26,938 bases of DNA from a virus. Of the stretch, positions 4,144-21,770 are shown in pieces. Under the pieces are notes generated by a model. It ran no database searches. It worked only from the letters and a program-made list of their open reading frames with translations, and was not told where the DNA came from. The position numbers and the translations under genes are program-made. The stretch is from positions 1-26,938 of IMG/VR virus record IMGVR_UViG_3300038552_000062; one strand, given 5' to 3'. The first letter of the stretch is position 1; each line of letters begins with the position of its first letter.

Positions 4144-4166
4144 CAGCCTCGTTGCCATAGCGAGTT

Positions 4167-4203: not shown

Positions 4204-4228
4204 GAACAACGGATGAGGGGCCAGCGTC

Positions 4229-4432
4229 ATGGCAGATGGGTACATCCGAATGATCTCCGAGCAGCGCCACGAGTACTGTGGGCGCTGGCTCGAGCCGGGT
4301 GAGGCGTTCGACGCGGAGGCGCGCGACGTCCACATCCTAAAAGTGCTCGGGCGCGCACGCATCGCGGACGAGGACCTGACATACGGCACGCGCGCGATGA
4401 CCGCGCGCCGCGGCAAGCGCCAGCTGCAGTGA
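4229..4432 (+). CDS. Small hypothetical head-region protein
   Basis: This is a 67-residue soluble protein beginning MADGYIRMISEQ, with a central CGRWLEPGEAFDAEARD segment and a basic C-terminus (RRGKRQLQ). It has no membrane segment or metal-binding motif. Small proteins of this pattern (a charged start, an EPGE.FD core, then an alpha-helical ALGRA-like end) are common between head genes of phages, but I cannot give it a function. A GAGGGG ribosome binding site precedes the ATG, and the stop is 7 bases before the portal GTG. Its position between the capsid terminator and the portal suggests a virion assembly role. Confidence 0.7.
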   Translation: MADGYIRMISEQRHEYCGRWLEPGEAFDAEARDVHILKVLGRARIADEDLTYGTRAMTARRGKRQLQ

Positions 4433-4439
4433 AACTCCT

Positions 4440-6841: not shown

Positions 6842-7440
6842 GCTGGGACATCCGGGAACTGACGGCTCCGACCTACGAGCCGGTGACGCTCGACGAGGCG
6901 AAGCTTTGGTGCCGGATCGAGGACGACGACGACTCGCAGGACGCGATGCTCCTCCTGCTGATCTACGCAGCGCGGGAGCGCGCGGAGGCGATCACTGCCC
7001 GGGCGTTCGCGCGCCGGACGTTCGAGCTTTCGATGGACGCGTTCCCGGAGGGCTCCGAGCCGATTGAGATCCAGAAGTCTCCCATCGTCTCGGTCGAGTC
7101 GGTGACCTACGCCACCGCGGACGGCGACGTCGCGATCGGCGGATCGCCGAGCGAGTTCCTCGTGGAGGTCCGGGGCGACAAGCTCCCCGGCAGGCTAATG
7201 CCGCTCTACGGGTCGAGCTGGCCGACCGCTACTCCCGAGGCCGGGTCGGTGCGGATCAGGTTCACCGCCGGGTACGCTCCCGGCAAGATCCCGCGGCGCG
7301 TGAGGCTCTGGATGCAGCAGCGGATCTCGTCGTGGTACGAGTTCCGGGAACATATCGTCGCCGGATCGGCGAACGCGCTCCCGAGGGACTTCGTCGACGG
7401 GCTGCTGGACGACCTACGGGCGCGGACGTTCTTCGCGTGA
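6838..7440 (+). CDS. Head-tail connector protein, gp6-like
   Basis: This 200-residue adaptor protein is expected to dock below the portal and join head to tail. It shows the family pattern: PVTLDEAKLWCRI near residue 15, a helical DAMLLLLIYAARERAEAIT segment (36-54), RTFEL near 60, then KSPIVSVESVTY at 80-91, as in HK97 gp6 and phiE125 gp8-like proteins. The GTG start overlaps the fibre stop (GTGA), with AAGGA upstream. A longer upstream open frame exists but reads through the fibre gene and has no support. The next gene overlaps the stop of this one by 4 bases, so the sugar island is translationally coupled to it. Confidence 0.85.
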   Translation: MSWDIRELTAPTYEPVTLDEAKLWCRIEDDDDSQDAMLLLLIYAARERAEAITARAFARRTFELSMDAFPEGSEPIEIQKSPIVSVESVTYATADGDVAIGGSPSEFLVEVRGDKLPGRLMPLYGSSWPTATPEAGSVRIRFTAGYAPGKIPRRVRLWMQQRISSWYEFREHIVAGSANALPRDFVDGLLDDLRARTFFA

Positions 7441-8102
7441 TCCTGCAGCGGCACTCGAACTGGCCGAACGAGAGACTGTCGACGGTCTCCAAGGGCTGGG
7501 AGGGCAGGACGGTCGTCTGCATCGCCACCGGCCCTTCACTGACCGCCGAGCAGGTCGAGCAGGTGCGGCTCTCTGCGGTGCCGACGATCACGGTCAACGA
7601 CGCGTACCTGATGGCGCCGTTCGCGGCGGTGACATACTTCGCGGACCTGAAGTGGTGGAAGTGGCACAAGGACCGGGCAGAGTGGAAGGCCTTCCAGGGG
7701 CAGAAGTGCAGCATCTGGATCGGCGGCGAGATGCCGGCGGACACGGCGGTCTACCTCCTCCGGAACGTGCCGGAGCAGAATGTCGGGCTCTCGCGGAACC
7801 CGGGGGCCGTCTGCACCGGGTCGAACAGCGGGTACCAGGCGATCAACATCGCGACGCTGGCAGGGGCCAAGCGCGTGGTCCTGCTGGGCTACGACGCGCA
7901 GTCGGTCAATGGCAGGGACCACTACTTCGGCGCGCACCCGGACAAGTCGAAACCACCGTACGACGCGATCAGGATCCGGTTCCGCGAGGCGGTGGCGGCG
8001 GCGAAGGCAATCGGGGTTGAGATCCTGAACGCGACGCCTGACTCGAAAATCGAGGCCTTCCGGAAGGTGACGCTTGCCGAGTGCCTACAACCTCCTGCGT
8101 GA
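7437..8102 (+). CDS. GPSL-motif protein, DUF115/MptE-like, possible sugar transferase
   Basis: This 221-residue protein starts at a GTG that overlaps the connector stop. It has a Rossmann-like start (VVCIATGPSL, GPSL at 32-35), VND near 53, FADLKWWKWH near 68 and a second Rossmann-type half, TGSNSGYQAINIA...GAKRVVLLGYD (127-153), then HYFGAHP. This GPSL plus GYQAINLA pattern is common in phage proteins and recalls DUF115/Maf-type flagellin glycosylation proteins and GT42-like folds. The exact reaction is unknown. It opens the glycan island directly after the head-tail connector. Biological role is inferred from fold resemblance and neighbours. Confidence 0.65.
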   Translation: MILQRHSNWPNERLSTVSKGWEGRTVVCIATGPSLTAEQVEQVRLSAVPTITVNDAYLMAPFAAVTYFADLKWWKWHKDRAEWKAFQGQKCSIWIGGEMPADTAVYLLRNVPEQNVGLSRNPGAVCTGSNSGYQAINIATLAGAKRVVLLGYDAQSVNGRDHYFGAHPDKSKPPYDAIRIRFREAVAAAKAIGVEILNATPDSKIEAFRKVTLAECLQPPA

Positions 8103-8904
8103 TCGGCCGTGGTATCGGCGCGAGGCATTCTCGCGCGGGCTGCGGGCGGCGGGCTACGCGGTCCGGGAGTGCAATCCGGTCTCCGTCTCCGTCGGCGACG
8201 TCCTGCTGATCTGGAACCGTTACGGGACGTGGGAGGCCGAGGCCCGCAGGTTCGAGCAGGCTGGCGGGACGGTCCTCGTGGCCGAGAACGGCTACATCGG
8301 GCGCGGCGGGACGGTGCCGAAGTTCGCGGTACACACCGCCCAAGGACCGCGGCCGGACGATTACTATGCCCTCGGCCTCGGGCACCACAACGACGACCGC
8401 GCGTGGGTGGCCGGAGGCCCGGAGCGCTGGCCGCTGCTCGGGCTCGAGATCAAGCCGTGGAGGACCGAAGGTAGACACGTCCTGATCCTCCCGAACCGGC
8501 CGTTCGGCGAACGCGGGCGCGCCATGCCGGACGGATGGGCCGAGAAGGCGGCGTCGAGGATCAGGGGCGAGACCGACCGCGAGGTCATGGTCCGCGCGCA
8601 CCCCGGGAACGACGCGCCGAAGAGGCCGCTCTCCGCCGACCTGGAGGGCGCTTGGGCGGCGGTTGTGTGGTCTTCAAGCGCCGGGGTCCACGCCCTGCTC
8701 TCCGGGATACCGGTATTCTGCGCGGGTCCGTACTGGTCGATGAAGTCGGCCGCCTCGACCGGGACCGTCGAGGACCCGACGCTGCCAGACAGGGCGCGGG
8801 CGTTCCATCGGCTCTCTTGGGGCCAGTGGACCTGTGCCGAGATAGAATCCGGGAGGCCGTTTGCTCGTCTGCTGTCCGCAGCCAGGGAAGGCGAAGTCGC
8901 GTGA
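8074..8904 (+). CDS. Putative glycosyltransferase, capsule-synthesis (KpsC/KpsS)-like, copy 1
   Basis: This is a 276-residue protein with a TTG start preceded by GGAAGGTGA and a 29-base overlap with the previous gene. The C-terminal half carries VRAHPGN (H176-P177), then ADLEGAWAAVVWSSSAGVHALLSG and PVFCAGP. This order (an HP motif, a Ser-rich loop and a G.PVF strand) is typical of Capsule_synth-type Kdo transferases and related GT-B nucleotide-sugar transferases. It is clearly related to the next gene over the final 90 residues (ADLEGAWA, ALL.G.PVF, W.WT..E). No membrane segment is present. Donor and acceptor sugars are unknown. Confidence 0.65.
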   Translation: MPSAYNLLRDRPWYRREAFSRGLRAAGYAVRECNPVSVSVGDVLLIWNRYGTWEAEARRFEQAGGTVLVAENGYIGRGGTVPKFAVHTAQGPRPDDYYALGLGHHNDDRAWVAGGPERWPLLGLEIKPWRTEGRHVLILPNRPFGERGRAMPDGWAEKAASRIRGETDREVMVRAHPGNDAPKRPLSADLEGAWAAVVWSSSAGVHALLSGIPVFCAGPYWSMKSAASTGTVEDPTLPDRARAFHRLSWGQWTCAEIESGRPFARLLSAAREGEVA

Positions 8905-9613
8905 GATCCTCGAAGCGCTTAGAGCAGGTCATCATGAGGTTGTACCCATCCACGGCGATCGTCGACGTAACGTCGTCGCGTTCTTCGGGGTCGTTGGACT
9001 TGAGCGCGACTTCCTTGACGTCAGGCGCGATTCTGACAGTGACTACCTTTACGGTGACAATGCCATGGTCGACCGGCTCAGAGGGAAGTTCTTCCGCTTC
9101 GCGCGGAACGCGTTCCAGGTCTCCACGCTCCAGCCGCCGGATTACCGCAGGCGCATCGCGCAAAGGCTCTTCGTAAGGCCGTGGCAGCGCGGCGGGAAGC
9201 ACGTGGTCGTGGTCGAGCAGTCGGCGCATTTCCTGGCGCTCTCTGGGACCGGGACGGACTGGCTCGCCAGGACGCTCGAGGTGCTGAGGCGCAGCACGTC
9301 CAGACCGCTTCGGGTGCGGCGCTGGAACAGGGACAAGGGCGGCGCCGCGGCGACGCTAGGGGCTGATCTGGAAGGGGCTTGGGCGCTCGTGACGCACATG
9401 AGCGCGGCGGCCAACGAGGCGCTCCTGGCCGGCGTGCCGGTGTTCGTGACTGGTCCCTGCGCTGCTACGCCACTAGCATCGGGGCCGCTCTCCGAGATCG
9501 AGAAACCGCGTTATATTGACGGCCGCGAGGAGTGGGCTGCCGGCCTAGCGAACTCCCATTGGACGATGGACGAGTTGAGGGACGGCACCGCCTGGAGGAG
9601 GCTGAGCGAGTGA
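8861..9613 (+). CDS. Putative glycosyltransferase, capsule-synthesis-like, copy 2
   Basis: This 250-residue paralogue of the preceding gene overlaps it by 44 bases. The start chosen is a TTG with GGGAGG four bases upstream (MLVCCPQPGK). Residues 168-200 repeat the ADLEGAWA...SAA..EALLAGVPVF..GP pattern of copy 1. The HP motif of copy 1 is not kept: the aligned stretch reads RVRRWNRDKG (151-160), so catalysis or ligand binding may differ. The N-terminal half is unlike copy 1 and not recognised. The gene probably arose by tandem duplication followed by divergence. Its stop overlaps the next start (GTGA). Confidence 0.6.
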   Translation: MLVCCPQPGKAKSREILEALRAGHHEVVPIHGDRRRNVVAFFGVVGLERDFLDVRRDSDSDYLYGDNAMVDRLRGKFFRFARNAFQVSTLQPPDYRRRIAQRLFVRPWQRGGKHVVVVEQSAHFLALSGTGTDWLARTLEVLRRSTSRPLRVRRWNRDKGGAAATLGADLEGAWALVTHMSAAANEALLAGVPVFVTGPCAATPLASGPLSEIEKPRYIDGREEWAAGLANSHWTMDELRDGTAWRRLSE

Positions 9614-10191
9614 AGGGCTGGATCGCCGTTCCCGGCATCCGCGAGGTAGCGGACCGGACGCTCGACGAGCAGATGCGCGGCCTGCGGGAGGCTTTTCCCG
9701 AGGCGAAGGGAAAGACCGTACTCGACCTCGGCTGCGCCGAGGGACTCATCGGCCGCGAGTTCGCGCTGGCCGGCGCCTCTCGGGTCGTCGGGATCGAGTC
9801 GCTGGAGGAGCACCTCACGGTCGCACGGATCGCCTGCGCGGACGCGCCACAGATGGAATTCGTCCAGGCGTACTTACAAGATTGGATCGCTGCGCACGAC
9901 CCGCCGGAGCAGTTCGACGTCGTCTTGGCATTGGGCATCATCCACAAGATCGGCGACCCGGGGTGGGCGCTGCGGTTCGCGTGCCGATCCTGTCGAGAGT
10001 TGCTGCTCTTCCGCGCCCCAGCGCACGCGTGGAACGGCTGGGTGACCGCGAAGCATCAGACGATGGGCAAGCACAGGGCAAAGTGCCACGTGCCCAGCGT
10101 GATGGAGGAGGAGGGCTTCTACTTCTCGCTGAAGATCGACGGCGCGAGGGGCGAGGCGGCCGAGTACTGGCGACGTAGGAAGAGCGCGTGA
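9610..10191 (+). CDS. Class I SAM-dependent methyltransferase
   Basis: This 193-residue protein has the SAM-binding motif VLDLGCAEG (37-45) followed by the acidic strand end VVGIES and a late FDVVLALGIIHKIGDP, which is the motif IV region. The C-terminal part (AKHQTMGKHRAKCHV and EGFYFSLK) could contact a substrate. GGAGGAGG precedes the GTG start by about 10 bases. It lies between putative glycosyltransferases, so a sugar or glycan O-methyl transfer is plausible, but the substrate is unknown. Confidence 0.8.
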   Translation: MKGWIAVPGIREVADRTLDEQMRGLREAFPEAKGKTVLDLGCAEGLIGREFALAGASRVVGIESLEEHLTVARIACADAPQMEFVQAYLQDWIAAHDPPEQFDVVLALGIIHKIGDPGWALRFACRSCRELLLFRAPAHAWNGWVTAKHQTMGKHRAKCHVPSVMEEEGFYFSLKIDGARGEAAEYWRRRKSA

Positions 10192-10406
10192 AGATAGTCA
10201 TAAAAATAGAGAACTGTGTCGGCAACGTCTGGATCGACGGCAAGAAGATCGACAAGGTCAAGGAATACTGCGTAAGGCATCGCGCTGGCGGGCCTCCGAT
10301 CGTGGAGATCACGACGCTGGCCATTCCGAATGAGTTCGAGTATCTGGCCGACGGCGTCACTGAGCTTAAGTATCTGCCAGGCAACATCAACGTGAAGGTC
10401 GAGTGA
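10188..10406 (+). CDS. Small hypothetical protein
   Basis: This is a 72-residue protein with 4-base overlaps on both sides (GTG starts, GTGA junctions). The sequence alternates short beta-like strands: MKIVIKIENCVGNVWIDG, then VRHRAGGPPIVEITTLAIP, ending in YLPGNINVKVE. It looks like a small all-beta domain, similar in pattern to small proteins found among phage structural genes. It has no catalytic motif, membrane segment or signal. The first 30 bases are A-rich compared with the surroundings. Function unknown. Confidence 0.65.
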   Translation: MKIVIKIENCVGNVWIDGKKIDKVKEYCVRHRAGGPPIVEITTLAIPNEFEYLADGVTELKYLPGNINVKVE

Positions 10407-11281
10407 CGACGCTCACCGCTTACCTCGACCTCGCGATCTGCCCGGTCTCCTACGACGCCGTGATCTTCATGGCGCAGGCGGAGATGGAGCGGCGGAGAGT
10501 TGGCGCCGACAGGCTCTACGTCTGCGTCGTCGGCGAGCCAAGGCTGAAGCCGCAGTACGACGAGGCCGAGGCTGATTGGCGACTCTGGAACATCGTCCTC
10601 CCTGCGGCGAAGCTCTTCGGAGCGCGCGTGATGCTCGCCGCGGACTGGCTCCAAGCCGAACGGGTAGCAAGCACGAAGGACTGGAAGCAGTGGCCGCCGG
10701 ACTGGCGGAAGCAAACGCTCAAGAAGCGGTGGCACCTCGTCGGAGGACTGATCGAACGCGCGGAGTCTGGAGAGCAGATCGCGAGGCCTACTGCATCGGA
10801 GCATGCGCTCCGGGCGGTCAGGAAGATCGCCGCGGGCCGCAAGTTCGTCACGATGACGATGCGGCAGACATATCTGACCGAGCGCAACAGCGACGAGGGG
10901 TCGTGGGGCGACGCAGCGCGTGCGATCGTCAAGAAGGGTTACTCGGTCCAGACGATCCGAGATACTGCGGTCGCGCTGCGAGAAGGTCACGGCTTCGCCG
11001 AGTTGAATCTCGATTTGCGAATGGCGTGGTACCAGACGGCCTCATACAACGTCGTCGCGAACTGCGGACCTGCCTCCCTGCTCTGGCTCTCGGATAGGCC
11101 ATACGTCATGCTAGGCGCAGAGTATCCGGCCGATGAGTGGAACGGACTGTTCGTGCAGCAAGGCCTGCCGCTGGGATCGAACTGGCCGTGGGCGCTGCCG
11201 AGCCAGACGATCTCCTACGGCAAGGAGGTCTCCGAGACGATCCTCACGGAGTTCGATCGGTGGGAATCGGCGACGAGCTGA
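10403..11281 (+). CDS. Putative glycosyltransferase-like protein, family A copy 1
   Basis: This 292-residue protein belongs to the same family as the one at 13204-13950. The shared core runs from VTMTMRQTYLTERNSDEGSW (residues 149-168) through a conserved LDLRMAWYQTASYNVVANCGP segment to LSDRPYVML (229-237). In both proteins an N-terminal Rossmann-like half is followed by an MTxR...RNS..W motif and an NxGP turn, which resembles a GT-B or GT9-like nucleotide-sugar-binding half. I do not recognise a named family with confidence. The N-terminus has YLDLAICPVSYDAVIFMAQAE. The GTG start overlaps the previous stop. No membrane segment is seen. Confidence 0.6.
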   Translation: MTTLTAYLDLAICPVSYDAVIFMAQAEMERRRVGADRLYVCVVGEPRLKPQYDEAEADWRLWNIVLPAAKLFGARVMLAADWLQAERVASTKDWKQWPPDWRKQTLKKRWHLVGGLIERAESGEQIARPTASEHALRAVRKIAAGRKFVTMTMRQTYLTERNSDEGSWGDAARAIVKKGYSVQTIRDTAVALREGHGFAELNLDLRMAWYQTASYNVVANCGPASLLWLSDRPYVMLGAEYPADEWNGLFVQQGLPLGSNWPWALPSQTISYGKEVSETILTEFDRWESATS

Positions 11282-12018
11282 TGGTAACCGGGATGGCGCG
11301 CGAAGCTCAGGCGCGCGATCCGAGACGGGTACGTATTGAGTACGAGAAGGGTAGGGTGAGATGGTCCGAGATCTGGGACAACAACCCGCGGATCGCCAAG
11401 TATGCGGAGGCGGGCGATTTTCAGGTCCTGCATCCAAGGAACGAGTACCTGCGGCCGTACTGCGTGGAGAAGACGGCCAAGCAGTGGACGTGGAGGGGCT
11501 ATAAGCCGCCGGTCGGAGAGATCTATTTCAGCGACTCCGAGATGGAGTTCGGCAAGATGGCATCCGGTTTCGTGATCGTCGAACCGAGGATCAAGCACGG
11601 GGCGTCGCCGAACAAGGCATGGCTGGATAGGTACTGGCAGAAGTTGGCGGGCCTCCTGAGAGCAGAAAATCTGATGCTCGCGCAACTAGCGCCGAGCACG
11701 ATCCAGACGATCAAAGGCGTCGGACTGATGCACACGGTCAGCTTCAGGCACGCTGCAGCGATCCTGAAGCACGCGCGGCTCGTGATCACGGTAGAAGGAG
11801 CGATGCATCACGCGGCGGCGGCGCTGGGAATTCCGGCCATCGTGATCTACGGCGGCTATATCTCTCCGGAGGTGACCGGCTACGAAGGGCAGACTGCGTT
11901 CTTCAGAGGAGGCGGATTGGGTTGCGGGATGCGCGTGCGCTGCAATCACTGCGCCCAAGCGATGGCGTCGATAAGGCCGGAGGAAGTTTTCGAGGCGGCG
12001 ATGTCCGCGATGCGATGA
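11260..12018 (+). CDS. Putative glycosyltransferase family 9 (heptosyltransferase-like)
   Basis: The start at GTG 11260 gives MGIGDELMVTG, the glycine-rich GIGDE(I/L)M opening common in GT9-like proteins. An ATG at 11281 would cut this motif, so the upstream GTG with GGAG about 8 bases before it is preferred (252 residues). Other signals are RWSEIWDNNPRIA near residue 33, FVIVEPRIK, a C-terminal ITVEGAMHHAAAALG followed by PAIVIYGGYISPEVTGY, which matches the sugar-nucleotide pocket of GT9, and a CNHC motif near the end. Expected role: adding heptose or another sugar from a nucleotide donor. It overlaps the previous gene by 22 bases and the next by 4. Confidence 0.7.
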   Translation: MGIGDELMVTGMAREAQARDPRRVRIEYEKGRVRWSEIWDNNPRIAKYAEAGDFQVLHPRNEYLRPYCVEKTAKQWTWRGYKPPVGEIYFSDSEMEFGKMASGFVIVEPRIKHGASPNKAWLDRYWQKLAGLLRAENLMLAQLAPSTIQTIKGVGLMHTVSFRHAAAILKHARLVITVEGAMHHAAAALGIPAIVIYGGYISPEVTGYEGQTAFFRGGGLGCGMRVRCNHCAQAMASIRPEEVFEAAMSAMR

Positions 12019-12626
12019 GCTACGAGGACTGCAACGCGCTCGGCGGGATGACCGCGTACAACTGGGAGATGGACCCGAAGCGGCTCGCGTTCCAGTTCGC
12101 GCGCTACAAGCATGTGGCGAAGATGCTGGAGGGGAAGAAGCGCATACTCGAGGTCGGGTGCTCCGACGGCATGGGCGCTAGGATCGTCCGGCAGCACGTC
12201 GAATGGCTAGTCGGGATCGATTCGGACGAGGCGGCGATTCACCACGCTAAACGTCTCATGTCAGAGGATTGGCCGATACATTTCGAGGCGCGGGATTTCA
12301 TGATCGGCGAGCCTCTCACGGACTACGATGCGGCGTACTCTCTGGACGTGCTAGAGCACTTCGAGCCGAGGAAGAGACACGATTTCCTCGCCAGAATGTC
12401 TCTAGCCGCTCCGATGGCGATCGTAGGAACGCCATCACTGGAGTCTCAGGCTCATGCCTCCGAGATCAGCAAGCGAGAGCATAAGGGATGCCTCACGAAG
12501 GCTGGGCTCAGGATCGCTATGGCTATGCACTGGAAGCACGTGATCGTCCTGGGAATGAACGATGAGACGCTCCACACTGGTCACGATGCGATGACGCACT
12601 ACCTGCTAGGGATAGGGATCGACTGA
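12015..12626 (+). CDS. Class I SAM-dependent methyltransferase
   Basis: This 203-residue protein has the SAM-binding loop ILEVGCSDGMG (44-54), the acidic residue in VGIDSDEAA after the second strand, and a motif IV-like YDAAYSLDVLEHFEP. The C-terminal MNDETLHTGHDAMTHY carries several His and Asp residues that may shape the active site. The whole pattern is that of small-molecule or sugar methyltransferases. The ATG overlaps the previous stop (ATGA) and its stop overlaps the next ATG by one base. Substrate unknown; glycan methylation is inferred from neighbours. Confidence 0.8.
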   Translation: MSYEDCNALGGMTAYNWEMDPKRLAFQFARYKHVAKMLEGKKRILEVGCSDGMGARIVRQHVEWLVGIDSDEAAIHHAKRLMSEDWPIHFEARDFMIGEPLTDYDAAYSLDVLEHFEPRKRHDFLARMSLAAPMAIVGTPSLESQAHASEISKREHKGCLTKAGLRIAMAMHWKHVIVLGMNDETLHTGHDAMTHYLLGIGID

Positions 12627-13207
12627 TGGCGCTCGATCGGATCAGCATGGAGATGATCGGAGAGCGCGCCGTCAAGCGCTCGGTCCTCTGCCTCGGCTAC
12701 CCGGACATGCCAGACGGGATGGACGCCGTCGGATGGCTGGACAAGTGCGGGGCGACCGCCGTCGACGTCGTAGACCTGATCGCGCATAAGGGCTGCGAGC
12801 GGATAGTGGACCTCAACGAGCCCCAGGAGTGGCCGAGGCGCTACGGGATGGTCATCAACCCCGGGACGCTGGAGCACTGCTTCAACCTTGGGCAGGCGTG
12901 GGCGAATGCGTGGGCCGCGGTGGACCTTCTAGGGCTGATGATGCACATCGCACCGGCGACGATGCTCAACCACGGATACTGGAACGTCTCGCCGGTGGCC
13001 TTCCGGGATTGGCTGAACATGAACGGCGGGGCCTTGATCGAGGAGCGCTTCGGCAGAAACGGGACCGCCGAGGACGTGAAGGTCGAGCCGATCAAGACGA
13101 GCAAATCCGGGCGCGGGCAACTCCCGCCGGAGACCGTGATCTACTCGCTGGGCGTCAAGGTGCTCGACCGTCCGTTGAAGTGGCCGACGCAGGCGCTCTA
13201 CAGATGA
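12626..13207 (+). CDS. Methyltransferase-like protein with degenerate SAM motif
   Basis: This is a 193-residue protein. The second half follows the pattern of class I methyltransferase C-terminal regions in surface-sugar clusters: VINPGTLEHCFN (77-87), AWANAWAAVDLLGLMMHIAP, then NHGYWNVSPVAFRDWL (115-130). The first half has a Rossmann-like LCLGYPDMPD and AVDVVDL but no canonical GxGxG loop, so cofactor binding is uncertain. It lies directly after a full methyltransferase (TGATG junction) and could act with it, or be a divergent enzyme. Function is tentative. Confidence 0.55.
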   Translation: MALDRISMEMIGERAVKRSVLCLGYPDMPDGMDAVGWLDKCGATAVDVVDLIAHKGCERIVDLNEPQEWPRRYGMVINPGTLEHCFNLGQAWANAWAAVDLLGLMMHIAPATMLNHGYWNVSPVAFRDWLNMNGGALIEERFGRNGTAEDVKVEPIKTSKSGRGQLPPETVIYSLGVKVLDRPLKWPTQALYR

Positions 13208-13950
13208 AGGCGCTCTACGACCTCTCGCGGTACCTGACGTCATTCAACTTCTTTGAATGGCTGGTCCAGTCCGAGGCCGATGGCGCGACGGAGGTCGTGT
13301 TCGACGCGAGGCGGATACGGTCCGACAAGTGGCCCGCGGACATCTCGCGGAAGCGCTTCGAGTCTATCTGCCTGCCGGGGCCTGCGCTGATCGGCCTGCC
13401 GCACTCGGTCATCCAAACGGACGCCGACGCGCACCTCCTCGCGGGAGCGCGCGACTTCGGCGAACCTGGCGGCGCGCGGCTGGTGAAGTTCTGCCGTCGC
13501 GGACGACGTTTCAAGCGGCTGACCTCTGTCAAGCCGGGCGGCAGCGAGCGCTACACCGTGACGCTTCGGAACACCCAGCGGTCGCCGGCACGCAACTCGA
13601 GCGAGGAGATATGGCGTGATTTCGCGCGAGGCATCGGCGCGCTGGTGATCCCGGACTACGAGGCGGTCCCAATCCACCTGCACGACAGGATGGCGCTCTA
13701 CGCCGGGGCGGAGATGAACTTCTTCTGCTCGAACGGGCCGGGTATCCTCTGCTCGCTCTCGCCCTACCCGTGCATGATGTTCAACACGCACCACGCGCGC
13801 GAGTCGTTGCTCGGTGATGGTATGAAGGAGGGCGAACAGTACCCGTGGATGATGCTCGGGAACCAGTTCGCAATCTGGGAGGAGGCGACCGGCGAGTCGC
13901 TGATGCGGCATTTCCTGGACTGGAAAGAACGTGTCCTTCGCATTGCCTAG
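13204..13950 (+). CDS. Putative glycosyltransferase-like protein, family A copy 2
   Basis: This 248-residue protein is a paralogue of the gene at 10403-11281. Shared landmarks are VTLRNTQRSPARNSSEEIW (119-137), LHDRMALYAGAEMNFFCSNGPG (159-180) and YPCMMFN (188-194), matching MTMRQTY..RNSDEGSW, NLDLRMAWYQTA...NCGP and RPYVML in the other copy. The N-terminal half (LYDLSRYLTSFNFFEWLVQ) differs. An NGP turn and a basic RRGRRFKR stretch near residue 98 could contact a phosphate-bearing donor. The ATG overlaps the previous stop (ATGA), and the 3' end overlaps the radical SAM gene by 20 bases. Reaction unknown. Confidence 0.6.
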   Translation: MKALYDLSRYLTSFNFFEWLVQSEADGATEVVFDARRIRSDKWPADISRKRFESICLPGPALIGLPHSVIQTDADAHLLAGARDFGEPGGARLVKFCRRGRRFKRLTSVKPGGSERYTVTLRNTQRSPARNSSEEIWRDFARGIGALVIPDYEAVPIHLHDRMALYAGAEMNFFCSNGPGILCSLSPYPCMMFNTHHARESLLGDGMKEGEQYPWMMLGNQFAIWEEATGESLMRHFLDWKERVLRIA

Positions 13951-15067: not shown

Positions 15068-15077
15068 AGGAAGGCTG

Positions 15078-15218
15078 ATGACATACGCAAAAAGGCGGGT
15101 GAAGAAAGAGCGGACCAAGAAGTGCCACACCTGCTGGGGCGAGGGCAAGGTGACGAACCGGCTCGGTAAGCTCGTGAAGTGCCCGATCTGCGAGGGCACC
15201 GGCAAGGCCCCGGCCTGA
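15078..15218 (+). CDS. Small DnaJ-type zinc-finger protein
   Basis: This is a 46-residue protein with two CxxCxGxG motifs (CHTCWGEG and CPICEGTG), separated by a short basic hairpin. That is one DnaJ-type zinc-binding unit without a J domain. The N-terminus is basic (KRRVKKERTKK). The ATG at 15078 has GAAGGAAGG upstream; an upstream in-frame start lies within the radical SAM gene and lacks support. Likely roles are zinc binding with protein or nucleic acid contacts. Its stop overlaps the next ATG by one base, which fixes it as a coupled gene. Exact function unknown. Confidence 0.75.
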   Translation: MTYAKRRVKKERTKKCHTCWGEGKVTNRLGKLVKCPICEGTGKAPA

Positions 15219-16516
15219 TGGCTCGGGCGCTGATACTCGGCGGCGGCTTCGCCGGCACGACCGCTGCGCATCTCTTGAAGCGCGAGGGCTGGGACGTCAC
15301 GCTCGTCGAGAAGGAGCCGCATCTTGGCGGAGGATGTCGGACGTTCTTCCACGCTGGACATCCGTTCACATACGGACCGCGCGTGTACTACGGCTACAGC
15401 CAGCGCGTCTTCGACTGGGTTCACAAGTTCGTGCCGATCCGGCGCTTCCCGTTCGAGCTGCGGACGCTCGCGCATGAGCCGTTCGATTGGGACCGCAGGT
15501 TCTGGTCCTATCCTCCGCACGAAGAGGACATCGCGAAGTACCCGCGCGCCTCGCTGATTGAGCGCGAGCTTAACGAGCGGGACAACTCGGTAGAGCCGAA
15601 GGACTTCGAGGACTACTGGATCCGGAAGGTCGGGCCGACGATCTACGATATGTTCGTCGATCACTACTCGAAGAAGATGTGGATGATCGGCGACAATCGG
15701 ATCTTCGACATCTTCAAGTGGAGCGCCAAGGATCGGCCGCTCGAGAGCGGGACGCGCGAGGCATACAAAGGTTCGCTGCTCGGCTATCCGAGTAAGTTGT
15801 CTGGATATAACGATTATTTCGACGCGATGGTTGATGGCGTTAACGTCGAACTATCAAGAACAGAGCGTCGTTATCCTTGGCTAGATGATCGCTATCAGTT
15901 TGATGCGATCATCAGTACGATACCAATCGATGAATTGTGCGGTCACGAACTTGGCGAGCTGCCGTACGTCGGCCGCGATTTCCATCTGCTCGTGCTGCCG
16001 TGCAAGCAGGTATTCCCTGGCGATGTCCGGTTCTGCCACTACGCTTCGCCGCGCGACGAGTGGACTCGGGTGACGGAGTTCAAGAAGATCACCTACCACG
16101 AGAGCGAGGACACGCTCCTCGTGCTAGAGAAGCCGAGCAAGGCGAACAAGCTATACCCGTACCTCACGAAGGCGAACGAGGCGAAGGTCCGCGAGTATAT
16201 GGCGCTCCTGCCTCCGAACGTCCACTCGATCGGGCGGCTCGGGACCTACAAATATTCTACGATCGAGCAGACGATCGTACAGGCGTTCGCGTGCGTCGCG
16301 AAGATATTGGGCAAGCCTTCGGCAGAAGGGATCGAGGGTGAGTGGCGCGGGATCGGCGACGTGTCGATGATGAAGGACAGGAGGGAAGATGGCGAAGGGA
16401 ATGAAGTGGCCAAAGAAGTAGCGAGACCGTGGCCGTTCCCGACTGGCAACATTAGGGTGACGGACAAGCTCATGACGCCGGCCAAGCAATATGGTCACCA
16501 ACGGAACCCGAACTAA
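15218..16516 (+). CDS. UDP-galactopyranose mutase-like flavoprotein
   Basis: This 432-residue protein starts with an FAD-binding Rossmann motif (LILGGGFAG, G8xG10xxG13) followed by VEKEPHLGGGCRT. The TYGPRVYYG segment stands where UDP-galactopyranose mutases have their HxFHT-like motif. YWIRKVGPTIYDMFVDHYSKKMW, the LGYPSKLSGYNDYFDAMV stretch, IISTIPIDEL and the late RVTEFKKIT match the order of motifs in Glf proteins. The reaction would be ring contraction of a UDP-sugar to its furanose form using reduced FAD. A patch around 15781-15950 is AT-richer with unusual codons. The gene is longer than typical Glf (about 370-390) mainly at the C-terminus. Specificity is uncertain. Confidence 0.75.
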   Translation: MARALILGGGFAGTTAAHLLKREGWDVTLVEKEPHLGGGCRTFFHAGHPFTYGPRVYYGYSQRVFDWVHKFVPIRRFPFELRTLAHEPFDWDRRFWSYPPHEEDIAKYPRASLIERELNERDNSVEPKDFEDYWIRKVGPTIYDMFVDHYSKKMWMIGDNRIFDIFKWSAKDRPLESGTREAYKGSLLGYPSKLSGYNDYFDAMVDGVNVELSRTERRYPWLDDRYQFDAIISTIPIDELCGHELGELPYVGRDFHLLVLPCKQVFPGDVRFCHYASPRDEWTRVTEFKKITYHESEDTLLVLEKPSKANKLYPYLTKANEAKVREYMALLPPNVHSIGRLGTYKYSTIEQTIVQAFACVAKILGKPSAEGIEGEWRGIGDVSMMKDRREDGEGNEVAKEVARPWPFPTGNIRVTDKLMTPAKQYGHQRNPN

Positions 16517-16524
16517 CAGGATCA

Positions 16525-16614
16525 ATGGGAAACCTTTCGACGAGAAGGTATTTCGATAACTACGTCCGTGCTCACTGGGCGCTAGAGACGCCTTACCCGG
16601 AGGGCGGCGCATAG
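16525..16614 (+). CDS. Possible 29-residue small protein
   Basis: A short open frame fills the only sizeable gap inside the island. It has an AGGA sequence 3-4 bases before the ATG and ends two bases before the FkbM-type gene, whose GGAGGGCGG ribosome binding site lies in its last codons. The product, starting MGNLSTRRYFDNYV, is aromatic-rich (YFDNY, HWALE, PYPEGG) and has no match I can name. It may be a leader that couples translation of the next gene rather than a functional peptide. Confidence 0.4.
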   Translation: MGNLSTRRYFDNYVRAHWALETPYPEGGA

Positions 16615-16616
16615 AT

Positions 16617-17285
16617 ATGTTCCAGCACCAAGGGATGTTCCTCCCAGATGGCGAGCGGCACTTCCCAGAGTGGATGGATAAGAACGGCGAAATCGTCGAC
16701 GGTCGCGGTACATATCAGATCAAGAAGTGGCGCGCCTGCCTGCCATGGGTTAAGAATTGGAGACGCGCGGTCGACGTCGGCGCGCACGTCGGCTTCTGGA
16801 CCGTGCAGATGGCGCAGAGATTCACGATCGTCGAAGCCTTCGAGCCGGTGGCGGAGTTCCGAGAGTGTTTCTCCAGGAACGTCGGTGCGCGGGTGAACGT
16901 GAACCTGTATGGCGTGGCGCTCGGAGATAGATCCGCGACCGTCACGATGAGGCGAGATGCCGCGGACTCCGGTGGAACGCACGTCGGCATGGTCGGCGAA
17001 GCGTTGCCGACACCGCTCGCGACGCTCGACAGCTACCGATTCCAGGACGTCGACTTTCTGAAGGTGGACTGCGAGGGCTACGAGTTGGAGGTCCTCTACG
17101 GCGCGATGGAAATGCTCAAGCGCTGCAAGCCGTGCGTGATCGTCGAGCAGAAGGCCCACAAGATGAAGGCCAACTTCGGACGCGAAGGGCTGCCAGCATG
17201 CGACCTGCTGCGGTCCATCGGCGCGTTGATGCGAACCGCCATCGGCGGGGACTACGTCTTCGCGTGGGACGCGGACGACAGGTGA
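16617..17285 (+). CDS. FkbM-family methyltransferase
   Basis: This 222-residue enzyme has AVDVGAHVGFWT (51-62), the SAM-binding loop of FkbM-type proteins, an acidic VEAFEPVAEF after the second strand, and FLKVDCEGYELEVLYGA (147-162), the diagnostic DxEGxE segment of the family. FkbM members add methyl groups to hydroxyls, often on sugars in glycan clusters. The ATG has GGAGGGCGG upstream. Its stop overlaps the next GTG (GTGA). Substrate is unknown; sugar methylation is likely given the neighbours. Confidence 0.88.
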   Translation: MFQHQGMFLPDGERHFPEWMDKNGEIVDGRGTYQIKKWRACLPWVKNWRRAVDVGAHVGFWTVQMAQRFTIVEAFEPVAEFRECFSRNVGARVNVNLYGVALGDRSATVTMRRDAADSGGTHVGMVGEALPTPLATLDSYRFQDVDFLKVDCEGYELEVLYGAMEMLKRCKPCVIVEQKAHKMKANFGREGLPACDLLRSIGALMRTAIGGDYVFAWDADDR

Positions 17286-17989
17286 GCAGGCTCGAGCAAG
17301 GACCGGCAACGGAACTGATCCCAGAGCACAACACGTCCGAGAATGCCATCCCGAAGGGCTTCTACCTGGACGACGACTTCAGGTCGTGGGCGAAGTTCAA
17401 GACCACGTTCTCCCTGGTCCCGAACTGCTTCGAGGTGACTGACGGAGAGATACGCAAGCGGGCCGTCGGCGCGAAGCTCGTCCCGGACGTCGGGAACCAG
17501 ATCGCGCCGTTCGAGAGCGCGATGCTGTTGCTCGTCAAGATGGCGCGCGACACGCACGCCGCCGGAGGGACGGTCCTCTTCTGCGGGAACGGCGGGTCGG
17601 CGGCGATCTGCAGCCACATGGCGGTCGACTGGACCAAGAACGGCGGGATCCGTGCGATGGCGCTCCACGACGCGGCGACGCTGACCTGCTTCGGCAACGA
17701 CTACGGATACGAGCACGTCTTCGCCAAGCAGCTCGAGGCCTACGCCTGCGAGGCGGACATGGTCGTGATCATCTCGTCGAGCGGGCGCAGCCCGAACGTG
17801 CTGGCTACGGGGAGATGGTGCCGCGACAACCGCGTGCGGACTGTTACGCTCTCCGGCATGGAGCACACTAACGAGCTTAGACGGATGGGGGACTTGAACT
17901 TCTACGTACCGTGCAGGGACTACGGGATAGTGGAGCTGGCGCATACGTTCCTGCTCCACGCTGTGGTCTCCGTCAAGTGGCCGATGTGA
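17282..17989 (+). CDS. SIS-domain phosphosugar isomerase, GmhA-like
   Basis: This 235-residue protein carries a SIS domain from about residue 70. FCGNGGSAA (100-108) and IISSSGRSPNVL (163-174) form the phosphosugar loops, and CFGNDYGYEHVFAKQL matches GmhA proteins. At the position of the conserved Glu in GmhA it has Asp (D116 in MAVDWTKN), and VELAHTFLLH supplies the expected His (H221). The GmhA reaction converts sedoheptulose 7-phosphate to heptose 7-phosphate, the first step to ADP- or GDP-heptose. The related SHM..D.TKN.GIRAM subgroup occurs in surface-glycan clusters. It is directly followed by a matching nucleotidyltransferase, but no heptose kinase or phosphatase is in the window. Confidence 0.8.
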   Translation: MSRLEQGPATELIPEHNTSENAIPKGFYLDDDFRSWAKFKTTFSLVPNCFEVTDGEIRKRAVGAKLVPDVGNQIAPFESAMLLLVKMARDTHAAGGTVLFCGNGGSAAICSHMAVDWTKNGGIRAMALHDAATLTCFGNDYGYEHVFAKQLEAYACEADMVVIISSSGRSPNVLATGRWCRDNRVRTVTLSGMEHTNELRRMGDLNFYVPCRDYGIVELAHTFLLHAVVSVKWPM

Positions 17990-18390
17990 TAACGGTTCTC
18001 GCGAACGGCTGCTTCGACCTCTTGCATGCCGGACATATCAGGCACCTCCAGGAAGCTCGATCGATGGGAGACAGGCTGGTCGTGAGCCTAACGCTCGACG
18101 ACTTCGTGGCCAAAGGCTCCGGGCGGCCGGTCTATGGGTTTACCGACCGATGGCTGATGCTATCGGCGCTCTCGTGCGTCGATATGGTGATCGGCGTCAC
18201 CTCCCTTGCAGCAGCGATCCGAATCGTCCGCCCGCACGTAATCGCGAAGGGCGTGGACTGGAAGGAGATCGGCCTATTCCCGGAGGACCTCGCTGCGGCG
18301 CGAGAAGTGGGGGCCGAGATCAGGTTCACTAGGACGGCCAAGATGAGCACGACGGAGACTATAGAGAGGATCCGATGCGCGTCTGCGTGA
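17986..18390 (+). CDS. Nucleotidyltransferase, heptose-phosphate (HldE/RfaE C-domain)-like
   Basis: This 134-residue single-domain cytidylyltransferase-like protein has ANGCFDLLHAGH with the HxGH motif at H14-H17, a GRPVYGFTDR loop, IAKGVDW near residue 87 and a late STTETIERIR (121-130), which replaces the ISTT/STSxII signature of the family. This matches the C-terminal domain of HldE, which forms ADP-heptose from heptose 1-phosphate. Glycerol-3-phosphate cytidylyltransferase is an alternative. It has no kinase domain. The GTG start gives a GTGA junction with the isomerase gene; a GTG nine bases upstream is possible but less likely. Confidence 0.8.
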   Translation: MITVLANGCFDLLHAGHIRHLQEARSMGDRLVVSLTLDDFVAKGSGRPVYGFTDRWLMLSALSCVDMVIGVTSLAAAIRIVRPHVIAKGVDWKEIGLFPEDLAAAREVGAEIRFTRTAKMSTTETIERIRCASA

Positions 18391-19325
18391 CCGGCGGGTG
18401 CGGCTACATCGGGTCGGCGCTCGTCCCGAAACTCCTGGAGGAAGGCCACTCGGTTCGGGTCGTGGACGCGATATGGTTCGGCAACAGGCTCGAGCCTCAC
18501 GCCAATCTGGAGACGATCGAATACGATCTCCGCGGCGGAGACCCTCCGGTAGAGGGCTGCGCCGCCGTGATCCACCTCGCCGCCATCGCGAACGACCCGT
18601 GTGGTGATCTGCACGCGAGGCTAACGTGGGAGGTGAACGCCCTGGCCACGGTGAGGCTGGCTCAGAAGTGCGCGAAGCTGGGGATTAGGCAGATTATCTT
18701 CGCGTCCTCCGCTTCGATCTACGGCATCAAGGACAACCGCCCGGTGACCGAGGACGAGCCGTTCGAGCCGGTCTCCGACTACAACAAGACGAAGCTCGTC
18801 GGCGAGCGCGCGCTGCTCTCGTTCTCCAGTGACATGAACGTCCAGATCGTCAGGCCCGCCACGGTCTGCGGGTTCTCCCCGCGGATGCGTCTGGACGTGA
18901 TCGTGAATATGCTCACCGCGCAGGCAATCGAGAAAGGTAGGATCACCGCGCACTGCGGCGCGCACGGCGGCAAGCTGATGCGGCCTCATACGCACATCGA
19001 CGACCTGACCGACCTCTACGTCTGGCTCCTGGACCGGCCGCACCTAAAGGGGCCGTTCAACGCGGGGTTCGAGAACCTGTCTGTCGGGGACCTGGCCGAG
19101 GCGATCAGGGGCGAGACCGGCGCGGACGTAGAGTTCACCGAGGTCGCGGACAAGCGAAGCTACGCGGTCGACTCCTCCTCCTTGCGGCGGGCGGGTTTCG
19201 TCCCGCGATCCTCGGTGAACGATGCGATCCGCGAGATGGTCCTCGGGTGGAGGGCGGGCAAGATCAAGCGGGAGCCGACGTCGATCAACCTGGAGTGGAT
19301 GCGGTCGCAGGGGATCGACCAATGA
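18375..19325 (+). CDS. Extended SDR, NAD-dependent nucleotide-sugar epimerase/dehydratase
   Basis: This 316-residue protein has the full extended-SDR set: TGGCGYIGS (6-14) for NAD, DLRGGDP near residue 51, HLAA (67-70), SSASIYG with the catalytic Ser near 112, and YNKTK (Y136, K140). RPATVCGFSPRMRLDVIVN and the HTHIDDLTDLY segment follow, as in sugar epimerases acting on UDP-, GDP- or ADP-linked sugars. The active site appears intact, unlike the next gene. GAGAGGA precedes the ATG, which lies 16 bases inside the previous gene. Substrate unknown; a heptose or hexose nucleotide is possible. Confidence 0.88.
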   Translation: MRVCVTGGCGYIGSALVPKLLEEGHSVRVVDAIWFGNRLEPHANLETIEYDLRGGDPPVEGCAAVIHLAAIANDPCGDLHARLTWEVNALATVRLAQKCAKLGIRQIIFASSASIYGIKDNRPVTEDEPFEPVSDYNKTKLVGERALLSFSSDMNVQIVRPATVCGFSPRMRLDVIVNMLTAQAIEKGRITAHCGAHGGKLMRPHTHIDDLTDLYVWLLDRPHLKGPFNAGFENLSVGDLAEAIRGETGADVEFTEVADKRSYAVDSSSLRRAGFVPRSSVNDAIREMVLGWRAGKIKREPTSINLEWMRSQGIDQ

Positions 19326-20206
19326 AGATCCTCGTCCTCGGCGCGAGGTCGTTCTACGGCAGGTGGTTCTGCGACGTGGCGAGGTCGAAGGGCCACGACG
19401 TCTTTGGTCTTTCCCGCCCGGAGTTCGACCTGCTCGACGCGGTGAAGGTCCAACAGGCGGCTGACCTCCATTACGAATACGTGGTCAACTTCGCGGCGAT
19501 CAATATCGTCGCGGACTCCTGGCCGTTCGGCAGTCTTTACTACGAGGTCAACACGGCCGGGATGGCGAGGGTCGCGGATTCGTTCTCGTACCCGCACCTC
19601 GAGAAGTTCGTCCAGGTCTCGACGCCGGAGGTCTACGGGACGACTGGACAGGCCCTAAAGGAGGGGGCGCCGTTCAACCCGAGCACGCCCTACGCGGTCT
19701 CGAGGGCGGCGGCGGACCAGCATCTCTCGCTGATGCACAAAGAGTTCGGCTTTCCCGTCTGCTTCACGCGGACGGTGAACGTCTACGGTGAGCGGCAGCA
19801 AGATTACAGGATCGTCCCGCGTACGCTCTCCGCGTGCTACGGCGGACCGCGGCTAAAGCTGGAGGGCGGAGGCCGTTCCACTCGGTCGTTCATACACGTC
19901 GAAGACGCCGCGCGGGCGACGCTGCGCGTTCTAGAGGACGGCGCGGTCAGCGAGACGTACCACGTCGCCCACCCGACCAGGATCACGATCCGGTCGCTCG
20001 TGGAGCACATCGCCGAGATGTTCGGCAAGACGCTCGAGGACGTGGCGGATGAAGTCCCGGAGCGCGTCGGCAAGGACATGGCCTACGACCTCGACGACTC
20101 GAAGATCCGGCGCGAGCTGGACTGGCACGAGCAGATCGACCTCCCGGGAGGCGTCCACAGGACGATGAGGTGGTTCTGCGACCGGGAGATGGAGTTCGGC
20201 GCGTGA
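19322..20206 (+). CDS. Extended SDR, RmlB-like, with altered catalytic residues
   Basis: This 294-residue protein has the layout of dTDP-glucose 4,6-dehydratases: NFAAINIVADSW, VSTPEVYG (99-106), a YxxxK-type site, TRTVNVYGERQ, RSFIHVEDAARA and a C-terminal sugar-binding domain. Several key positions differ. The NAD loop reads GARSFYG (7-13), lacking the middle Gly. The TDE triad of RmlB is TPE (101-103). The catalytic Lys of YxxxK is Arg (YAVSR, Y124-R128, codon AGG). Such changes suggest altered or lost dehydratase chemistry. It is coupled to the previous SDR by an ATGA junction, so the two may act as a pair or heterocomplex. Confidence 0.8.
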   Translation: MKILVLGARSFYGRWFCDVARSKGHDVFGLSRPEFDLLDAVKVQQAADLHYEYVVNFAAINIVADSWPFGSLYYEVNTAGMARVADSFSYPHLEKFVQVSTPEVYGTTGQALKEGAPFNPSTPYAVSRAAADQHLSLMHKEFGFPVCFTRTVNVYGERQQDYRIVPRTLSACYGGPRLKLEGGGRSTRSFIHVEDAARATLRVLEDGAVSETYHVAHPTRITIRSLVEHIAEMFGKTLEDVADEVPERVGKDMAYDLDDSKIRRELDWHEQIDLPGGVHRTMRWFCDREMEFGA

Positions 20207-20478
20207 GGGTCATCCCGCTCTCGATCAAAGAGGCGGAGGAGTTCCTGAAGGCCCACGAGCGGCACTACAAGGCGCCGGTCGAGGCGATCTGCGCGATCGG
20301 GGTGGGAGACCAGGAGGGCGTCACGATCCACGGCGCGGCGATCCTAGGGAGGAGAGAACGCGACGTCGCGGAGCTGGCGCACATCTACTGCGACGGCGCG
20401 TCGCAGGCCTACTCGCTCCTCTACGGGGCCTGCTGGCGGGCGCTCAAGGCACTCGGCTACGAGAAGACTGTGCTATGA
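20203..20478 (+). CDS. XF1762-like phage protein, apparently C-terminally truncated
   Basis: This 91-residue protein starts RVIPLSIKEAEEFLKAHERHY, then AICAIGVGDQEG, ILGRR, HIYCDGASQAYSLLYGACWRALKALGY. This matches the order of motifs in XF1762-family proteins of phages and plasmids, which look like acetyltransferase-fold proteins. Those proteins usually run on for 40 or more residues with a conserved Ser-Leu-Arg segment after the GY..(I/V) strand. Here a TGA comes directly after EKTVL, so the end of the fold is missing. The GTG start overlaps the previous stop. The next gene is in the same frame 18 bases later. Whether the short form is active is unclear. Confidence 0.6.
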   Translation: MRVIPLSIKEAEEFLKAHERHYKAPVEAICAIGVGDQEGVTIHGAAILGRRERDVAELAHIYCDGASQAYSLLYGACWRALKALGYEKTVL

Positions 20479-20496
20479 GGCACGGCAGGCGGTAGC

Positions 20497-21174
20497 GTGA
20501 GGTTCGGCGCGATCCTTCAGGCCTACGAAAGAGGCCTGAGGGACCGCATGGGCGAGTTTGAGTGCCCGGTCCACCTCTGCCTCGGGCAGGAGGACGTCCC
20601 GGAGGCCCTCAAGGATCTGCTACGCCCGGAAGACTGGCTCTTCTCGACGCACAGGTCGCACGGCCACTACCTCGCCAAGGGCGGGGATCCTGGCAAGCTG
20701 ACCGCCGAGATCGAGGGCCGCGAGGACGGGATCAACGGCGGCTTCTCCGGCAGCCAGAGCTTCTCGGACGCCGCGATCAGGTTCCACTCGACCGCCATCG
20801 TCGGCGGGCTGATCGGGGCCGCGACCGGCGCCGCGCTGGCGCTGAAGTTCCAGGCCTCGAACGCGCTCTCGATCTGCTGCGTCGGAGACGCGGCTACCGA
20901 GCAGGGCGTCTTCTGGGAGTCGCTCAACTTCGCCTCCCTCCACGCATTGCCGATCGTGTGGGTCTGCGAGAACAACGGCCTCTCGGTCCACTCGCACTAC
21001 CAGCAGCGGCAATGCGCGCCGCTGACCTCTAGGATCGCCGCCTTCCGCGTCCCAGTGGCGCGAGGGGTCGACGGCCTCAGGACGATACTCAAGGCGAGGA
21101 CCGCCCCGGCGTTCGTGGAGGTCCCGTGCGAGAGACGGTGCAACCACGTCTCGGCCATGGAGGACCTGCGATGA
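20497..21174 (+). CDS. Thiamine-diphosphate-dependent dehydrogenase E1 alpha-like subunit
   Basis: This 225-residue protein corresponds to the cofactor-binding subunit of 2-oxo acid dehydrogenase or acetoin-dehydrogenase-type enzymes. FSTHRSHGHYLAKGGDP (49-65) matches the conserved R-HGH segment. VGDAATEQGVFWESLNFASLHALPIVWVCENN (129-160) is the thiamine-diphosphate and Mg binding motif, from GD to NN. It is compact: family members are mostly about 320 residues, and here the N-terminal part and several loops are short. GGFSGSQSF replaces the usual GGSMHL, a variant of the GSQH-type found in glycan clusters. The GTG start is supported by a purine-rich GGCAGGCGG upstream. It is coupled to the beta subunit by an ATGA junction. 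Confidence 0.82.
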   Translation: MRFGAILQAYERGLRDRMGEFECPVHLCLGQEDVPEALKDLLRPEDWLFSTHRSHGHYLAKGGDPGKLTAEIEGREDGINGGFSGSQSFSDAAIRFHSTAIVGGLIGAATGAALALKFQASNALSICCVGDAATEQGVFWESLNFASLHALPIVWVCENNGLSVHSHYQQRQCAPLTSRIAAFRVPVARGVDGLRTILKARTAPAFVEVPCERRCNHVSAMEDLR

Positions 21175-21770
21175 ACTTCATGCAGGCCGTCCGGGCGGCG
21201 CTAGACAACGCGCTGGCCGACAGATCCGTGGTCCTCCTCTCGCAGCTCGCTAGGTGGGGCCTCGGAGGGTTGACCTCCGGACTCTACGAGCGGCATGGAG
21301 ACCGAGTGATGACCATGCCGGTCGCGGAGAACCTGATGCACGGCGCGGCGATGGGGATGGCTTTGGCCGGAATGAGGCCGGTGGTCCTCAACGAGCGGAT
21401 CGACTTCCTGATGCTCGCGATGGACCCGCTCGTGAACCACATCCCGATCTGGCCGATGCGCGAGCGCATGAACATGCCGCTTACCGTGATCTCGGTCGTC
21501 GGAAAGGGGAAAGGACAGGGGCCGCAGCACTCCAAGAACCTGGTCGGTTGGTTCCGATCTCTGGACGGCTGGGACGTCCTCGAGCCTTCCTCGCCGGAGT
21601 CCGCGGCGGTTTCGCTGAAGTCAGCGATCTTCGGGTCACGGCCGACGATGTACGTGCTGCACAGGGAGTTTTTCAAGTCCGAGGGCGAGGTCTCGCTCCC
21701 GGTCACCGATCGCGTCCGAATCTGCGGCGCGTCTCAGCGCCACGAGCGCGCGTTCTACGAAGGAGACTGA
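21171..21770 (+). CDS. Thiamine-diphosphate-dependent E1 beta-like subunit, short form
   Basis: This 199-residue protein matches the pyrimidine-binding (Transket_pyr) domain of E1 beta: MPVAENLMHGAAMGMALAGMRPVV (49-72) with the activating Glu E53, DFLMLAMDPLVNH, a GKGKGQGPQHSKN loop (111-123) and VLEPSSPESAA. The transketolase C-terminal domain normally found after about residue 200 is absent. With the alpha subunit it forms the two halves needed for a ThDP active site. No E2 or E3 component is present, so a decarboxylase, carboligase or split-transketolase-like reaction on sugar or keto-acid substrates is more likely than oxidative decarboxylation. It ends the sugar island; the next gene is structural. 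Confidence 0.82.
   Translation: MNFMQAVRAALDNALADRSVVLLSQLARWGLGGLTSGLYERHGDRVMTMPVAENLMHGAAMGMALAGMRPVVLNERIDFLMLAMDPLVNHIPIWPMRERMNMPLTVISVVGKGKGQGPQHSKNLVGWFRSLDGWDVLEPSSPESAAVSLKSAIFGSRPTMYVLHREFFKSEGEVSLPVTDRVRICGASQRHERAFYEGD

Follow-up and report, generated by a model that had tools for sequence, protein, structure and literature searches.

A cassette of soluble sugar enzymes within the virion operon of a phage, with a possible role in virion glycosylation

The stretch of DNA analyzed here (the window) is a whole IMG/VR record of 26,938 bases, IMGVR_UViG_3300038552_000062, in which genes for TerL, a protease-major capsid protein (MCP) fusion, the portal, a collagen protein, and a gp6-like connector are followed by a large island of sugar-type genes (7437-21770) and then by structural proteins. 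An earlier note, made from the sequence by eye, had placed about 20 sugar genes between the connector and virion proteins; we count 21 open reading frames (ORFs), all on one strand and tightly coupled (about half start in 4-bp overlaps), nearly all of which are of sugar type, the exceptions being small ORFs (72, 46, and 91 residues) and a few unassigned proteins (Table 1; genes are named below by their start positions). Both borders are exactly as that note described them: on the left, the GTG of the first island gene (7437) overlaps the TGA of the connector (7438-7440) in a GTGA, and on the right, the E1-beta gene stops at 21770, with the ATG of a structural gene two bases further on, at 21772. 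Promoters or terminators internal to the island were not found beyond shuffled expectation. Further to the left, between the MCP and portal genes, some 300 bases (4144-4439) contain no clear gene, at a place where relatives have small ORFs. Family searches matched no flippase, polymerase, or initiating transferase (Wzx/Wzy type) in the window, so that the locus does not qualify as an O-antigen or capsule cluster, and a hydropathy scan, the transmembrane check that the note had called for, revealed no convincing membrane protein among the island proteins (two marginal segments both lie within soluble enzyme folds). The note's claim that flippase, polymerase, polyprenyl-phosphate transferase, and membrane proteins are all missing is thereby borne out.

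An assembly chimera can be ruled out. One contig (L002; IMG/VR 3300038551) spans the left junction with 99.97% identity to positions 2359-9219 of the window, possibly not as an independent sample; the diverged, 55-kb contig G003 (IMG/VR 3300025971) keeps both junctions; and the right junction is present again in contig L036. In G003, TerL, MCP, portal, collagen, and connector genes are followed by 18 of the 21 island genes in co-linear order and then by the right-hand gene of the window, at 37 to 75% protein identity, so that the search for the same gene order elsewhere, as proposed in the earlier note, was successful. Neither chimeric junctions nor a uniform lack of the island among relatives, two of the grounds on which that note would have given its reading up, was encountered. 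Past the island and the surface proteins, G003 continues with genes for head closure, neck, tail terminator, tail tube, and tape measure proteins, which places the cassette and the following surface proteins between adaptor and head closure. The proposed head-to-tail operon thus holds as far as the head-neck placement is concerned, whereas the window itself contains no tail genes, the tail block being visible only in G003.

Table 1. Features of the window, with the evidence for each assignment
Feature	Position	Strand	Evidence or remark
Collagen-repeat protein, phrog_1289 type	5825..6841	+	Pfam Collagen 1e-28, phrog_1289 4e-41; conserved in relatives whose islands are small or different
gp6-like head-tail connector (Ad1), left border	6838..7440	+	PF05135 2.7e-9, phrog_442 3e-24
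GT42/PmgO-like putative glycosyltransferase	7437..8102	+	phrog_4603 4e-37; homologues at PAJU2, PMG1 head-neck site; P1 PmgO
Putative glycosyltransferase, paralogue of 8861	8074..8904	+	Alignment A2; homologue adjoins GT42-like gene in Caulobacter phages
Putative glycosyltransferase, paralogue of 8074	8861..9613	+	Alignment A2
S-adenosylmethionine (SAM) methyltransferase	9610..10191	+	Methyltransf_31 1e-10
72-residue protein	10188..10406	+	No family matched; no counterpart in G003
GT-B heptosyltransferase-like, paralogue of 13204	10403..11281	+	Alignment A4
GT9 heptosyltransferase-like	11260..12018	+	PF01075 1.9e-8; 34.4 vs cut-off 22 bits
SAM methyltransferase	12015..12626	+	Methyltransf_25 1e-8
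Methyltransferase-like	12626..13207	+	Homology only; G007 homologue 3' of capsid and TPR genes
GT-B, WaaC/TibC-like glycosyltransferase (predicted)	13204..13950	+	AlphaFold2 pLDDT 92; WaaC Z 12.0, TibC Z 10.3
Radical SAM/SPASM enzyme	13931..15067	+	PF04055 3e-14, PF13186 2.5e-5
46-residue zinc-ribbon (CxxCxGxG) protein, between radical SAM and mutase genes	15078..15218	+	Weak DnaJ_CXXCXGXG/anti-TRAP matches
UDP-galactopyranose-mutase-like flavoenzyme	15218..16516	+	PF03275 4e-25; 64-73% identity to other-phage copies
FkbM methyltransferase	16617..17285	+	TIGR01444 9e-22, above cut-off
SIS sugar-phosphate isomerase, GmhA-like	17282..17989	+	gmhA 4.5e-26, under equivalog cut-off
Nucleotidyltransferase, RfaE/HldE domain II-like	17986..18390	+	TIGR02199 1.6e-27, under equivalog cut-off
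SDR epimerase/dehydrogenase (SDR1)	18375..19325	+	Best PDB relative 6vo6
SDR, dTDP-glucose-4,6-dehydratase-like	19322..20206	+	TIGR01181 1e-45, under cut-off
Half-length (91-residue) XF1762 (Mom-like GNAT) protein	20203..20478	+	NF045478 3e-15, above cut-off
Thiamine diphosphate (ThDP) subunit, pyruvate dehydrogenase (PDH) E1-alpha-like	20497..21174	+	PF00676 1.7e-27; PDB PDH E1 alpha 2e-30
ThDP subunit, E1-beta/transketolase pyrimidine domain	21171..21770	+	PF02779 9e-17
Virion structural protein, right border	21772..22185	+	phrog_3758 1e-25; 71% identical, same place in G003
Ser/Thr-rich (23%) protein, candidate acceptor	22514..23929	+	Composition only
Ser/Thr-rich (23%) protein, candidate acceptor	25914..26702	+	Composition only

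A profile search with E1-alpha returned 52 viral loci. The E1-alpha tree unites ten close phage rows in a group with support of 99/98, inside which four sequences from betaproteobacterial genomes branch, and virion or packaging genes lie beside the cassette in every one of these phage rows (10/10). The core set that recurs consists of the SIS isomerase, the nucleotidyltransferase, an SDR, the ThDP E1 alpha and beta subunits, the radical SAM enzyme, the mutase, and glycosyltransferases. In phages of another, unrelated type (L011, L012, L013, L037, and L038), the core genes stand in altered order, with genes for portal, scaffold, and capsid proteins in between (the capsid gene of G007 matches Phage_capsid_3; terminase and portal labels were given by inspection), and in L008 and L010 the E1-alpha and E1-beta genes stand immediately 5' of the connector. 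At the head-neck boundary, the island ranges from absent (JLK-2012, SOVA965, and RHph_X2_26) through a few genes (L082 and the cultured phages PMG1 and PAJU2) and an intermediate form of about five (L083) to the full set of G003 and the window. Between G005 and G007, dN was 0.09 to 0.28 for cassette genes and 0.185 for TerL (only dN was used, because dS was near saturation). Since bacterial homologues are nested in the phage clade, these genes evidently move between hosts and phages, and the island might then be a set of O-antigen or metabolic genes that was acquired passively and plays no part in the virion. We consider this very improbable, given the gene order retained at the divergence of G003, the low dN, the repeated insertion at one structural site, and the lack of Wzx, Wzy, and initiating transferase mentioned above.

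As to the sugar, the GmhA-like and RfaE-II-like proteins, together with the relation of SDR1 to PDB entry 6vo6 (which we take to be a Campylobacter GDP-heptose enzyme), point to a heptose-like donor. No kinase family that could supply a heptose kinase was matched in the window; in L037, an RfaE-I-like kinase adjoins the SIS, nucleotidyltransferase, SDR1, and E1 genes, which favors a heptose-like product. The NCBIfam equivalog scores fall below their cut-offs (gmhA, 91.8 versus 209 bits; rfaE_dom_II, 96 versus 181.5 bits). E1-alpha scores 96.6 bits against a Pfam cut-off of 22, with the GD..NN motif columns for ThDP conserved; the pair does not have the makeup of a PDH complex E1, however, with an equivalog score of 140 versus 394 bits, an E1-beta consisting of the pyrimidine domain alone, and no E2 partner in the window.

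The half-length XF1762 protein is the most strongly conserved of the cassette: its end falls on one and the same residue in each of four diverged phages (72 to 75% identity to the window copy), and a further copy, in L072, is 78% identical. The weak match of this protein to the Mom-like family might suggest that the sugar decorates phage DNA as a hypermodification against restriction, and viral glycosyltransferases are reportedly able to hypermodify DNA (Pyle et al. 2024, as cited in PMC12619734). With no hydroxymethyl-pyrimidine synthesis gene found in the window, glycosyltransferases of a heptosyltransferase-like kind, and genes in a late structural position, we give this idea scarcely any credence.

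Among the transferases, the gene names in the earlier note proved broadly right, with the refinements that 7437 is GT42/PmgO-like and that 8074/8861 and 10403/13204 are paralogous pairs. Pfam gave no match for 13204, 10403, or 8074/8861. Structure prediction of the glycosyltransferase-like proteins, another of that note's proposals, yielded a confident GT-B model for 13204, which models as a WaaC/TibC-like heptosyltransferase: the predicted fold matches both proteins along the entire length of 13204, WaaC over 212 aligned positions at an rmsd of 3.6 (unrelated rows reach a Z of about 8 or less) and TibC over residues 99-394, the N-terminal beta-barrel of the TibC/BAHT family being absent from 13204. 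A model of 8074 was poor (pLDDT 51) and was set aside. PDB sequence searches with 7437 and with alignment A4 found no related chain, and scans of phages with 11260 as query gave no matches. Three of the island's methyltransferases, including FkbM, have Pfam support, and the fourth (12626) was assigned by homology. The P1 homologue of 7437, PmgO (L092:5944-6606), is annotated with a "putative morphogenetic function," and the nearby pmgQ as a glycosyltransferase; the PAJU2 homologue (L093:2992-3561) was deposited as a "structural protein" and may be virion associated. In L036, a further MptE-like gene of glycosyltransferase type (6043-6891) lies amid the surface-protein genes 3' of the island.

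Since enzymes of the WaaC type are active at the cytosolic face, the main rival explanation concerns the lipopolysaccharide (LPS): late in infection, the enzymes might act on the core or O-antigen of newly made host LPS, for instance, to keep progeny from readsorbing to debris or to exclude other phages. GT9/WaaC-like and GT42-like enzymes are classically LPS directed and would need no phage flippase, and D3-type phages have related genes. On the other hand, in phages unrelated to one another the cassette sits among genes of the head-neck region or the capsid, its bacterial relatives are found at flagellin genes in two metagenome-assembled genomes (MAGs), and known seroconversion genes usually sit elsewhere in phage genomes, as short cassettes with membrane proteins. 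On balance, we regard LPS modification as unlikely, although a serious contender. The enzymes are soluble and no membrane component is present, as the earlier note had it, but its step from a missing flippase to a cytosolic protein acceptor was too strong, since the heptosyltransferases of the LPS core likewise do their work on the cytosolic side and require no flippase from the phage.

The flagellin connection comes from Betaproteobacteria TMED41 and TMED100, in which a glycosyltransferase-SIS-SDR-E1 set homologous to the phage cassette lies about 6.6 kb from a giant flagellin ORF. In TMED41 (L028), an ORF that matches the flagellin C-terminal domain (E 2e-23) precedes genes in the order radical SAM, GT2, A4-family glycosyltransferase, SIS, SDR1, methyltransferase-like, E1-alpha, and E1-beta. 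The flagellin ORFs of G010 and G011 (1874 and 1875 codons) end about 6.6 kb from E1-alpha, and G010 has further flagellins on the cassette contig. Several giant flagellin genes (about 900 to 1900 codons) occur in betaproteobacterial genomes, some with ThDP E1 paralogues within 7 to 14 kb (cf. L028:14-3400).

As acceptors, the earlier note had named the collagen fibre and the two Ser/Thr-rich proteins. Little speaks for the collagen protein, because homologues occur at the same place in island-free relatives (in JLK-2012, the gene after the portal, assigned by position). The better candidates, and the most likely acceptors, are the beta-rich proteins with much Ser/Thr whose genes come in together with the island.

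Precedents exist for parts of such a system. Phage virion glycosylation has, to our knowledge, been demonstrated in very few cases, with few enzymes, and mycobacteriophages reportedly manage with few glycosyltransferases and host donors. There, phage genes glycosylate virion proteins, as proposed here, namely, capsid and tail tube proteins (Freeman et al. 2023, as cited in PMC12619734); the island phage, in contrast, apparently supplies much of the donor pathway. At the corresponding head-neck position, the D3-like Pseudomonas phages PAJU2 and PMG1 encode a GT42-like protein, a methyltransferase, and a protein without assignment that looks GT9-like by eye, but they have only a few genes there and no sugar-nucleotide enzymes. 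In the Caulobacter giant phage CcrBL9, GT42-like, 8074-like, 8861-like, GT8-like, methyltransferase-like, and GT9 genes follow the tail genes in a row, but at the tail-lysis boundary and with no nucleotide-sugar enzymes seen there; a six-gene glycosyltransferase/methyltransferase run lies between tail and endolysin genes in such phages (L090:9058-13547). TibC, the catalytic part of which resembles 13204 in predicted fold and heptose chemistry, heptosylates adhesins (PMC4358343), and FlmG, a tetratricopeptide repeat (TPR) protein with a GT-B domain, glycosylates flagellin in the cytoplasm (PMC7591256), so that both are precedents for soluble enzymes acting on structural proteins. In flagellin glycosylation of the FlmG kind, as in the proposed system, a self-assembling structural protein is modified by soluble enzymes, and the bacterial homologue of the cassette lies beside flagellin; unlike the proposed system, FlmG uses pseudaminic acid, and the island phage has no flagellin. 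A TPR protein is also encoded after the capsid gene, one small ORF away, in L037, L038, and G007. Its repeats resemble those of O-GlcNAc transferase, although TPR matches are common, and since no Pfam family matched its C-terminal part, "TPR glycosyltransferase" is a reading by eye.

From the conserved position and content of the island, phage-encoded glycosylation by soluble enzymes expressed late is well supported. The earlier note had left the choice between virion glycosylation and late modification of the host surface; the glycosylation cassette was upheld and a virion role is favored, the acceptor argument having been overstated. Glycosyltransferase genes are linked to virion genes in both the window and G003, an arrangement expected of phage virion glycosylation, and we hold it slightly more probable than not that the island is a cytosolic cassette, expressed with virion genes, that glycosylates virion proteins. 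The SIS isomerase, the RfaE-II-like nucleotidyltransferase, and the SDRs, with a host kinase and phosphatase, would make an unusual, heptose-like nucleotide sugar, which the ThDP pair, mutase, radical SAM enzyme, and methyltransferases might tailor and which the WaaC/TibC-like, GT9, GT42-like, and 8074/8861 proteins would transfer in the cytosol, before or during assembly, most plausibly to surface or fibre proteins encoded 3' of the island. Such a coat could affect how the particle adsorbs, how sensitive it is to proteases, or how it is recognized.

Several observations weigh against virion glycosylation. The equivalog cut-offs for GmhA, HldE, and others are missed, so that the predicted donor can be called no more than heptose-like; WaaC itself belongs to the LPS core pathway, and the acceptor cannot be read from a GT-B fold. 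The window has no TPR protein, and a collagen-type gene occupies the same place in PAJU2 and L083, which have far smaller islands. Adjacency to flagellin is limited to two MAGs that are close relatives of each other: LSUCC0115 has its flagellins on a different contig from the cassette, and in a Comamonadaceae MAG with the cassette, no flagellin was found.

Phage glycosyltransferases, phage virion glycosylation, and sugar-gene sets in phages are already known; what is new is a conserved cassette of donor and transferase genes that sits inside the virion operons of phages unrelated to each other and has a bacterial counterpart linked to flagellin. A literature search of incomplete coverage found no paper on such an island within a phage structural operon. 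More tentatively, and with the balance tilted against so broad a claim, we speculate that a transferable protein-glycosylation cassette shuttles between bacterial flagellin loci and the virion operons of unrelated phages, bringing its own heptose-like donor and allowing particles to be coated in the cytosol independently of host glycans. Given that the cassette occurs in unrelated phages and beside flagellin genes, it is probable that these viruses give their own particles a sugar coat. Natural versions at a single site are graded in size, with anything from one gene to about twenty, and small forms are carried by cultured relatives, which makes the question of virion glycosylation directly testable. 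The cassette ties phage coats to cytosolic flagellin glycosylation, and with ThDP and radical SAM enzymes combined in it, new sugar chemistry could emerge.

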